From Methanobrevibacter sp. (GTDB lineage: Archaea; Methanobacteriota; Methanobacteria; Methanobacteriales; Methanobacteriaceae): a DNA stretch of 64,000 nucleotides. The DNA is taken from assembly GCA_022775905.1 (NCBI GenBank), contig JALFJX010000021.1, forward strand, positions 1-64,000, given 5' to 3'. Below are positions 7,364-34,052 of the stretch, piece after piece (positions within the stretch are counted from its first letter, which is position 1; the number at the start of each line of letters is the position of its first letter). The notes under the pieces were generated by a model. The model worked only from the letters and a program-made list of their open reading frames with translations, searched no databases and had not been told where the DNA came from. The translations under genes were made by a program, and so were the position numbers.

Positions 7364-7846
7364 TTACTCTATTATTTTTTCTTTTACTATTTTTTCTATT
7401 GTTTTATAAAATTCAGATTCTGTTTTTTCAAATTCTTTGAATGATGCATCTACGCTGCAATTGCAAACATCTGTTTTTCCGATAAGATATTCTGTTGAAT
7501 CTTTTTTTATTAAAATTCCAAATAGTTTCTCTTGCTTGTCGGCATAAAGATCAAATTCTTCTTGATTTAGTTGTAAATTGTAGTCATTTGTGGAGAAGAT
7601 ATCACATTCATTTAAAATAGGCATAAATGTCATCATTCCAAATGGTAAGAAAATATTTTCACTTTTGCTGATTTTTACAAGTCTTTGTTCGTAGGTATCC
7701 TCCTCGTTGATGTCATAACCACTGATTTTCAGTATGTTGTTTTCACCCATGTAGTTATTGTCATCAATAATAAATGCAAGCAAATCAGGGTCTATGTAAT
7801 TATTACAGGAAGCCCTAATATTTTTAATAGTTTCATAAATTTTCAT
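7364..7846 (-). CDS. Hypothetical protein downstream of ADP-ribosylglycohydrolase remnant
   Basis: An unrecognised soluble acidic protein of 160 residues with no signal peptide or membrane helix. It contains two adjacent cysteines in VCNCSVD. The ATG at 7846 is preferred over the GTG at 7849 because AGGT lies about eight bases upstream. Its start overlaps the original 3' end of the broken ADP-ribosylglycohydrolase gene by 14 bases, so the two formed a translationally coupled pair. The frame is intact although its partner is damaged. Function unknown. Confidence 0.6.
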   Translation of the reverse strand: MKIYETIKNIRASCNNYIDPDLLAFIIDDNNYMGENNILKISGYDINEEDTYEQRLVKISKSENIFLPFGMMTFMPILNECDIFSTNDYNLQLNQEEFDLYADKQEKLFGILIKKDSTEYLIGKTDVCNCSVDASFKEFEKTESEFYKTIEKIVKEKIIE

Positions 7847-8736
7847 CACATACTACCTCGTATTTTTCACATAATTCAATGATGGTATCAATCTTGCGGA
7901 TTTGATTAATCCAATTATAGGAATGTCTTCAAAACCATAATATATTCCAGCAAGTCCTCCGCAAATAGCTGCTACAGTATCAGTATCTTCACTTAAGTTA
8001 ACTGCTTTTAGAACTGCTTCTTTATAACTATCCGTATTTTCAAGACAGTAGATAACTGCCTCAAATGTAGAAATTACATAGCCTTTGCTTGAAATTCCTT
8101 CTGAATAATCATTATCAAAGATTCTTCTAAAGTGTTTAAGTTCTGCATTGCCTTCATAATACTCCTTAATTTTATCACTTGCATTTTTAACATGTGTTTC
8201 AATGCTAAATCAGGAGTGTTTATCATGGATTTTGCAATTTCAACATAAAGCACACAAGCAATTCTGGATCTTTTATGTCTATGAGTTAATGAGGAAATAT
8301 TTTCAATTGTCTCATAATCAATGTCTTTTATGAATGCTAATGGAAGAATTCTCATTAAAGAACCATTTCCATTGTCTCTTTCACCATCCATTCCACAAAA
8401 TGGGCTTAGGCCAGACACATAACTGTCTAAAGCATTATGTGTTGTAATTCCTATGTCAAATGTTTCTTCTTGTGTGTATTTGTTATTTTTTTGCCATTCG
8501 ATAAATTCTTCGATTATGTCTGAATAATCAATGCATTTTTTATTAATTATACTTCCCATTGTGGCTATTGTCATGGAAGTATCATCAGACCAGGTTCCTG
8601 CGGGTTTGTTATATTCTCCAAAACCCATCATTCCAGTCACTGGATTTTGTTCAAGGTATTTTCTGGATTTAAACTCAACTGGAACTCCCAATGCATCACC
8701 TACGACCAAACCAATAATTCCATCTTTGACTTTCAT
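7833..8736 (-). pseudogene. ADP-ribosylglycohydrolase with two frameshifts
   Basis: The N-terminal two thirds are intact: DGIIGLVVGDALGVPVEF, the metal-binding SDDTSMT motif and NGSLMRI of the DraG/ARH family, which removes ADP-ribose from proteins or other targets. Near 8195-8205 the frame shifts. The continuation (ETHVKNASDKIKEYYEGNAE, then the second metal motif SEDTDTVAAICGGLAG) is in another frame. A second shift near 7905-7925 moves the tail (WINQIRKIDTIIELCEKYEV) to a third frame ending at the TGA at 7833. As written, the product would stop after 220 residues without the second magnesium site and would be inactive. Lesions could be real or sequence errors. Confidence 0.82.
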
Positions 8737-32436: not shown

Positions 32437-32646
32437 ATGAAACTCGAAGAATTATTAGCACCATGTCCAAAATGTGGTTCAAAAGATAAAATAGCTCACA
32501 GAAAAATGTTAGATAATCACAGAGCTCACGCAGAAATGGATACTGTAAAATGTGAAGAATGTGGTTATATTTTCTTCGTAAACGATAAAATGGACGAAGA
32601 TGAGAAAAAACAATTATTAAATGAATTAAACAAAATCTACGGTTAA
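32437..32646 (+). CDS. Cys-rich peptide, likely radical SAM modification target (TIGR04165-like)
   Basis: A 69-residue peptide with four cysteines in two pairs (CPKC at 10-13, CEEC at 39-42), a His/Arg-rich middle (HRKMLDNHRAHAE) and a charged helical end. The size, cysteines and position one base before a SPASM radical SAM gene match what I recall of the TIGR04165 Cys-rich peptides found beside TIGR04083 radical SAM enzymes in methanogens. It could be a ribosomally made, modified peptide or simply a zinc-ribbon partner protein. The start ATG has GGTGAAAA upstream; a TATA element (TATTATATATTTT) lies near 32392. Confidence 0.7.
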   Translation: MKLEELLAPCPKCGSKDKIAHRKMLDNHRAHAEMDTVKCEECGYIFFVNDKMDEDEKKQLLNELNKIYG

Positions 32647-32647
32647 A

Positions 32648-33775
32648 ATGACATTCCATGTAATGATTATTCCTACCCTAAATTGCCCATCAAGATGCAA
32701 ATACTGTTGGGGTTCTGAAAATAAAAAAGAAATGATGGGCCTTGACATTATTGATCATATTATAACTTGGTTAGATGATTTTAGGGATGATAAAGTTCAT
32801 TTCACTTTCCATGGTGGTGAACCACTTCTTGCAGGTTATGATTTTTACAAAATGGCTTTAGAAAAATTGTCTGCATTACCTAATCTCGAAGGATTTTCTC
32901 TTCAAAGTAATATTTGGCTTTTAACTGATGAATTAATTGACTTGTTCGTCAAATACAATGTTGTTGTAAGTACAAGTATTGATGGACCAAAAGAAATCAA
33001 TGATTATCAAAGGGGAGAAGGTTACTTTGACAAAACAATGGCAAGATATGAAGCTGCTAAAAACAAGGGAATGAGAATTAACTTTGTTTTAACTGTAACT
33101 GATTATTCAAAGGATTTTTCAGATGAATTATATGATTTCTTTAAAAATGAAAAAATGAACCTTAAAATTCACGCAGCTTTGCCGTCTTTACGCGGAGACA
33201 ATGCAGATCCATGGGCACTTGAACAGAAAGAACATGGAAAACTCCTAATTGAATGGTTGGATAAATATCTCTATGATTTGGATAAATTTTCCATTATGGA
33301 TTTGGATCATATCTGTAAAAGTTCACTTAGAAGAAGAGGAACATTGTGTACATTTGCAGATTGTATTGGAACTACTCTTGCTGTAGGTTCTGATGGTTCA
33401 ATCTATCCATGCTATAGATTTGTTGGAATGTCTGATTATGTTTTGGGAAATGTCAGTGATAATCCAAGTTTTGATGATTTAAAAGAGTCTGATGCTTGGG
33501 TGAAACTTCAGGAATTTAGAGATTACGTTGATGAAAACTGTAAAAAATGCAAACATGTTAAATATTGTGAAGGAGGATGTCCATACAATGCTATTGTTGC
33601 ATATCAGACACCTAAAGCAGTTGATCCTCAATGTACTGCATATAAAATGATATTTGATGAAGTTTCAAAAAGAATGAACAAGGAATTTGCTCGTTCAGCA
33701 TTTGGTTTGGGTAGTCCAACACCTAGAAAAGAAGGGGATGCTTTTAGCATAATGGATTTGGCTATGAAGCATTAA
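32648..33775 (+). CDS. Radical SAM/SPASM peptide-modifying enzyme (TIGR04083-like)
   Basis: A 375-residue radical SAM enzyme. The cluster motif CPSRCKYCWG (residues 14-23) binds the SAM-reducing 4Fe-4S cluster; FHGGEPLL follows at about 58-65. The C-terminal SPASM region has cysteines in LCTFADC, IYPCYRFVG, CKKCKHVKYCEGGCPYNA and DPQCTAYK for auxiliary clusters. Such enzymes install thioether or other cross-links in peptides. It starts one base after the Cys-rich peptide stop, so the two are translationally coupled, making the peptide the obvious substrate candidate. No transporter or protease gene follows. Confidence 0.85.
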   Translation: MTFHVMIIPTLNCPSRCKYCWGSENKKEMMGLDIIDHIITWLDDFRDDKVHFTFHGGEPLLAGYDFYKMALEKLSALPNLEGFSLQSNIWLLTDELIDLFVKYNVVVSTSIDGPKEINDYQRGEGYFDKTMARYEAAKNKGMRINFVLTVTDYSKDFSDELYDFFKNEKMNLKIHAALPSLRGDNADPWALEQKEHGKLLIEWLDKYLYDLDKFSIMDLDHICKSSLRRRGTLCTFADCIGTTLAVGSDGSIYPCYRFVGMSDYVLGNVSDNPSFDDLKESDAWVKLQEFRDYVDENCKKCKHVKYCEGGCPYNAIVAYQTPKAVDPQCTAYKMIFDEVSKRMNKEFARSAFGLGSPTPRKEGDAFSIMDLAMKH

Positions 33776-33805
33776 ACCTTCAATATTTTTTTTAAAATTC
33801 TTTTA

Positions 33806-34038
33806 AGTAATACTTAGTATATAAATAAATTAAAAAAAAGTAATAATTTTTTTATATGTGTTGGAATAAATTATTAATTGTAATACTTGGTATTTAAATA
33901 AACTCAAAAAAAGTAATACTTTTTTGGTTGTTTGGTATTTACTGGATTGATTTTTTAATAGTTTTAAATTTTGGAATTTCTATTGAAAATTTTTTGAGTA
34001 ATACTGAGTATTTAAATAAATTCAAAAAAAGTAATATT
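33806..34038 (+). promoter_or_regulatory. Three repeated promoter/operator units upstream of metal P-type ATPase
   Basis: Three imperfect copies of a 42-43 base unit lie at 33806-33848, 33880-33922 and 33997-34038. Each has a palindrome (AATAC-TTG-GTATT in copy 2, AATAC-TGA-GTATT in copy 3, nearly so in copy 1). This merges into a TATA box (TATTTAAATAAA), then an A-run, then a second AGTAATA half-site about 20 bases further on, near the expected transcription start. Operator halves flanking the TATA box and start site imply repression that blocks TBP or polymerase. A metal-responsive regulator is inferred from the gene controlled. Confidence 0.75.
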
Positions 34039-34052
34039 TAGAGGTGTTTTGT

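Follow-up and report, generated by a model that had tools for sequence, protein, structure and literature searches.

The window analysed here, a stretch of DNA of 64 kb in length, carries two genes on the forward strand that are set apart by a single base. The first of these (32437–32646, +) encodes a Cys-rich peptide of 69 amino acids and ends with a TAA codon at 32646, the spacer is position 32647, and the second (32648–33775, +) begins with an ATG at 32648 and encodes a radical SAM enzyme of 375 amino acids. In HMM searches, the peptide matched TIGR04165 with 88 bits (cut-off 60, profile positions 1–50 of 50) and the enzyme matched TIGR04083 with 596.6 bits (cut-off 300, profile positions 1–375 of 376). 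The original prediction, made from the DNA alone, had described a CPKC/CEEC peptide one base ahead of a SPASM radical SAM gene and had given these two family names; the coordinates and the cysteines agree with that description, and both families were named correctly, each being matched well over its cut-off. Among named organisms, Methanobrevibacter species have the enzymes most closely related to this one.

The peptide has two Cys knuckles, CPKC (C10 and C13; 32464–32475, +) and CEEC (C39 and C42; 32551–32562, +), and the cysteines of both are invariant in 17 aligned peptides. AlphaFold predicts, with modest confidence (pLDDT 69), a zinc ribbon of three strands followed by a helix at the C-terminus, for which the Foldseek matches were weak, with E-values above 0.3, and were led by TFIIS/RPB9 ribbons. 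The peptide also matched the Pfam family Lar_restr_allev (32.8 bits, gathering score 28.6). The enzyme possesses the Radical_SAM and SPASM domains of Pfam, both over the gathering score. Its CxxxCxxC motif (C13, C17 and C20; 32684–32707, +) is that of a radical SAM [4Fe-4S] cluster, and its SPASM region, assigned to auxiliary clusters, runs from C234 to C329 (33347–33634, +), includes the sequence YPCYRFVG at C255 and could be aligned with anaerobic sulfatase-maturating enzyme (anSME) and CteB. Both sets of cysteines had been noted in the original prediction, and C13, C17, C20, C234, C239, C255, C298, C301, C307, C311 and C329 are invariant in 27 aligned sequences.

Upstream of the pair there is a gene for an aldo-keto reductase that has 4Fe-4S sites, and downstream one for a heavy-metal P-type ATPase. 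HMM annotation of the flanking genes identified no RiPP export or protease gene beside the pair, which supports the earlier expectation of a product that stays in the cell. Directly before the ATPase gene there are three imperfect 64-nt AT-rich direct repeats (33785–34039, core GTAATACTTGGTATTTAAATAAA...AAAAAAAGTAATA), which by their sequence look like repeated operator or promoter sites.

Distribution of the pair in Methanobacteria

Across 152 genomes of the class Methanobacteria, both genes were identified in 134, the enzyme only in one, the peptide only in two and neither in 15, one of which we take to be Methanothermus fervidus. Genomes with at least one of the genes thus number 137, and 134 of these have both. 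In 103 of the 134, peptide and enzyme are on one strand and within 700 bp of one another, and linkage among genomes with both falls to 0/20 in genus g12 and 0/5 in genus g13. In the four single-chromosome genomes with separated genes that were compared, the distance between peptide and enzyme ranged from 0.5 to 1.6 Mb. As the pair has been kept in all 20 genomes of g12 though its members are separated, the association goes beyond position and is functional.

These data bear on several claims of the original prediction. The co-occurrence that it had proposed to check is borne out in this class, where the SPASM enzyme is tied to the peptide. Frequent separation of the two genes had been named as evidence against the RiPP-like system, and they are indeed apart in g12 and g13, but both are kept there. 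An unmodified peptide that simply binds zinc had been named in the same way; on the Pfam match, the AlphaFold model and the weak Foldseek matches, the peptide does look like a zinc ribbon.

A number of further features were found around the pair in this class. The gene hisG is a frequent neighbour, in Methanobacteria only, and was rejected as a partner, this restricted neighbourhood being read as old gene order. In three genera, the peptide and/or the enzyme adjoin genes for a small 2[4Fe-4S] ferredoxin and a geranylgeranyl reductase (L127, 2210–5620; L140, 7950–10990; L130, 7296–8875; also L132, L134 and L136), and in genus g12 the peptide lies upstream of these genes with the enzyme far off. 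Such a neighbourhood may reflect either an old order of genes or a connection through electron transfer; a link with archaeal lipid reduction was rejected, pairs of ferredoxin and geranylgeranyl reductase genes being common without the peptide or the enzyme. There is also a second, longer TIGR04165-like peptide (75–83 amino acids, CPECGSKDK ... CANCGY) in several Methanobacteria (L140, 3025–3252; G144:C1:519871-520050; G142:C8, G139:C2, G006:C132 and G141:C39), whose gene in Methanothermobacter is on the opposite strand, some 5 kb away from the pair.

The enzyme in Halobacteriota and its linkage to mcrA

Among 295 sampled genomes of Halobacteriota, TIGR04083 was found over its cut-off in 89, the matches being full-length and scoring from 618 to 722 bits, above the score of the window enzyme, and TIGR04165 was over its cut-off in none. 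Direct inspection of nine TIGR04083 carriers gave the same result, with no TIGR04165 match over the cut-off. A hidden, divergent peptide in Methanosarcina was considered and rejected, since the best TIGR04165-like matches at the two loci that were read turned out to be zinc ribbons of transcription factor S, and the 30 loci inspected have no recurrent small Cys-rich gene beside the enzyme. In the enzyme tree, Methanobacteria and Halobacteriota fall on opposite sides of one branch (support 100/100), which is the split that an old inherited enzyme family would show.

The Halobacteriota carriers of the enzyme are closely associated with McrA, which is encoded in 87 of the 89 carriers vs 165 of the 295 genomes overall (hypergeometric P about 1e-25, a value that ignores the relatedness of genomes). 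Within a limit of 600 bp, the TIGR04083 gene was found near mcrA in 15 of the 89 carriers, at a distance of 140–486 bp; in all 15 it lies downstream and shares the strand of mcrA. Two further mcrA-adjacent cases were found (G484, 179 bp; G563, 223 bp). At locus L304 the gene order is mcrB-D-C-G-A-rSAM, with mcrB, mcrG, mcrA and the enzyme confirmed by HMMs, and an mcr block with the enzyme, all or most of its genes being called, also occurs in L306, L309, L313 and L314. The mcrA-adjacent enzyme genes are scattered over separate parts of the tree, with at least 4 label changes. A T-rich tract separates mcrA from the enzyme gene in L304, so that a shared transcript is not proven, and in Methanobacteria the TIGR04083 gene was not seen beside mcr. 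The purpose that the original prediction had given to the enzyme, that of modifying the peptide, fits poorly with a family that occurs in this phylum without TIGR04165, tracks McrA and often lies behind mcrA.

Two other arrangements were noted near mcrA. At L309 (G221), the enzyme gene lies between a full mcrA and a partial mcrA copy, the latter being a 121-codon ORF after the TIGR04083 gene (7636–8001) that repeats part of the mcrA 3' end. In ANME-2d, a protein of about 720 amino acids is encoded near mcrA (L308, 5142–7298; L363, 6716–8914), which is possibly a B12-type radical SAM enzyme and is a candidate for another MCR modification.

Gene status and the didehydroaspartate of MCR

Methyl-coenzyme M reductase (MCR) makes nearly all biological methane, and its didehydroaspartate was reported in 2016. 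The makers of its thioglycine, methyl-Arg, methyl-Gln and methyl-Cys are known (PMC7581889, PMC8070964, PMC11796369, PMC7058361), and that of didehydroaspartate has been stated to be unknown (PMC7581889, PMC8070964). The literature searched, which included few subscription papers, names no didehydroaspartate enzyme and mentions neither TIGR04083 nor TIGR04165. Didehydroaspartate is present in Methanothermobacter marburgensis, M. barkeri and M. acetivorans and absent in Methanothermobacter wolfeii, M. kandleri, M. formicicus, M. thermolithotrophicus, M. shengliensis, ANME-1 and Ca. Ethanoperedens (PMC9081873, Table 1), and the MCR of ANME-2c and ANME-2d carries it (PMC12413448).

To compare gene status with this record, genomes were assigned to species by the identity of their McrA to PDB chains. 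The TIGR04083 gene is intact in M. marburgensis (G144), in M. barkeri (G571) and M. acetivorans (G568), whose McrA are 100% identical over the compared stretch to 1e6y and 8gf5, respectively, as well as in a relative of ANME-2c (G477, McrA about 97% to 9qm5). It is absent from M. jannaschii, used as a proxy for Methanococcales, from the ANME-1-like G331/G293 and from G460, a genome with a divergent McrA. Together with M. wolfeii (see below), gene status agrees with the published record in four species identified by McrA and in the ANME-2c, ANME-1-like and Methanocaldococcus proxies, with ANME-2d being mixed; on the negative side, the comparison covers M. wolfeii, the Methanococcales and ANME-1-like proxies and the divergent-McrA genome G460.

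In ANME-2d, the McrA nearest to 9qqt (98.9%) is that of MAG G497, in which no match to TIGR04083 was found, including in the 9.7 kb downstream of mcrA. This MAG is a counter-example, since the MCR of ANME-2d carries didehydroaspartate. The gap may represent incompleteness of the MAG, and most other genomes of the same ANME-2d cluster carry TIGR04083. Several McrA-positive Methanosarcinaceae are also without the gene, with the Asp still conserved. Replacement of Asp450 in genomes without the gene was considered and rejected, as the motif is conserved in nearly all genomes.

M. wolfeii, which is without didehydroaspartate, has a recently broken copy of the gene, with intact copies in close relatives. 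In the genome in question (G151), McrA I and McrA II show 100% identity to the M. wolfeii chains 5a8k and 5a8w, the studied strain being matched to this genome by McrA sequence only. In its TIGR04083 gene, codon 337 is changed from TAC to TAG at a Tyr that is invariant in the family (Tyr332 of the window enzyme, codon 33641–33643, +), with loss of the last 39 residues, among them most of the C-terminal helix (329–351 in the model). Up to codon 336 the enzyme is 85% identical to the M. marburgensis protein, and the frame past the stop is identical to it at 34 of 38 positions. Of the 211 substitutions ahead of the stop, 148 fall at third codon positions, which indicates that the gene was under selection until recently. 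Judging from the sequence, the M. wolfeii enzyme, though short of only its C-terminal 10%, would be inactive.

A further disrupted copy was observed in G149, which we take to be M. thermautotrophicus delta H, where the TIGR04083 gene is short of 1 bp near nt 693 (L262; G149:C1:71400-73300). Either the record has a sequencing error at this point or the loss is real; a real deletion predicts an MCR without didehydroaspartate.

Proposed function and comparison with known systems

We consider it probable that TIGR04083 modifies McrA, most likely making the didehydroaspartate, and that the TIGR04165 peptide most likely has an accessory role in Methanobacteria. The computations show to which families the genes belong, that the enzyme gene is linked to mcrA and co-occurs with McrA, that its status matches the published one and that M. 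wolfeii has a nonsense codon; from this we infer the reaction, the target residue and the role of the peptide as follows. The target would be Asp450 of McrA (M. marburgensis numbering), which lies beside the thioglycine in the motif GYDLQDQCG. The CxxxCxxC cluster would cleave SAM to give a 5'-deoxyadenosyl radical, this radical would abstract a hydrogen from the aspartate side chain, and a one-electron oxidation through an auxiliary cluster would then follow. The net reaction would be a two-electron oxidation of one protein residue. This order of hydrogen abstraction and one-electron oxidation is proposed because the enzyme has an anSME-like fold and anSME carries out a two-electron oxidation of a single residue in a full protein.

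The predicted TIGR04165 zinc ribbon, which occurs only in Methanobacteria, might present McrA, stabilise the enzyme or pass electrons. Given that archaea of a second phylum do without the peptide, an accessory role is likelier than that of main product, and the peptide is possibly also modified as a second substrate. The more specific proposal, that TIGR04083 is the MCR didehydroaspartate synthase and needs a dedicated TIGR04165 partner in Methanobacteria, and that the M. wolfeii phenotype comes down to one nonsense mutation, we hold to be evenly balanced between right and wrong.

An enzyme with two substrates, acting on McrA in Halobacteriota and on both McrA and the peptide in Methanobacteria, with the modified peptide being needed for the reaction or otherwise, seems to us unlikely. 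It would be in keeping with the way in which nearly every carrier in Methanobacteria has both peptide and enzyme, unlinked genes included (20/20 genomes of g12), and with the genomes of M. wolfeii and M. marburgensis, in which McrA status tracks the gene and both of which keep the TIGR04165 peptide; an accessory role, however, explains this co-occurrence equally well, and the sequences gave no sign of peptide modification.

We give slightly less credence to a RiPP-like system, in which the SPASM enzyme would cross-link or oxidise the Cys-rich peptide and the product would act inside the cell. The spacing of one base in the window, the near-constant pairing of the two genes in Methanobacteria, the presence of RiPP maturases among the NCBIfam relatives and a PCxxFVG motif common to CteB all suggest such a system, but an export or protease gene is missing beside the pair, the peptide reads as a folded zinc ribbon in which the cysteines would bind metal, and in the 89 Halobacteriota genomes without TIGR04165 over the cut-off the enzyme goes with mcrA. 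As the sole explanation it was rejected as the main reading, the enzyme being found without the peptide in a second phylum.

It is doubtful to much the same degree that the enzyme acts on MCR to bring about some other change, at another residue or in a maturation step, the match with didehydroaspartate being coincidental: linkage to mcrA by itself names no residue and one ANME-2d MAG conflicts with didehydroaspartate, but this is the only tabulated MCR modification that differs between M. marburgensis and M. wolfeii (PMC9081873), M. barkeri and M. marburgensis, both of which have the TIGR04083 gene, are without 6-hydroxy-Trp, and enzymes for S-methyl-Cys, methyl-Arg, methyl-Gln and thioglycine are already known.

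If formation of the McrA didehydroaspartate by TIGR04083 is correct, a family that NCBI names a peptide-modifying radical SAM enzyme can be renamed for its action on McrA, and the difference between M. marburgensis and M. wolfeii has a one-codon answer. The effect of the modification could then be tested by deletion of one gene in M. acetivorans, one more factor would be needed for the expression of MCR in a foreign host, and dehydrogenation would be suggested as a reaction of SPASM enzymes.

Of the known systems, anSME (TIGR03942; PDB 4k36–4k39) is the best match to the enzyme both in fold and in sequence. The AlphaFold model (mean pLDDT 88) matched it with a TM of 0.79 and an E-value of 8e-23, followed by CteB and ChlB; it is also the best PDB sequence match (1e-24), and a radical SAM domain with a full SPASM domain is found in both. 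The cut-off of TIGR03942 is however not reached (172.7 bits vs 349), and where anSME has its catalytic Asp after the SPASM Cys (YPCDF), the window enzyme has a Tyr (YPCYRF), so that formylglycine formation is not expected. The RiPP maturases CteB/SCIFF and PapB belong to the same superfamily, and CteB also has the IYPCxxFVG motif; the enzyme differs from SPASM maturases of this kind in that its Halobacteriota carriers have no TIGR04165 peptide and in that its proposed substrate is a large metabolic enzyme. The peptide, for its part, resembles the restriction alleviation protein Lar and zinc ribbons of the TFIIS/RPB9 type in its two CxxC knuckles with beta strands, but it misses the NCBIfam cut-off for Lar (26.2 vs 39.6). 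In its proposed role, TIGR04083 would be akin to Mmp10/MamA (methyl-Arg), MgmA (methyl-Gln), McmA (methyl-Cys) and YcaO-TfuA (thioglycine), which modify the active site of McrA in methanogens; it differs from these in being of another family, of the SPASM type, and in its proposed product, which would be a dehydrogenated aspartate with no methyl or thio group.
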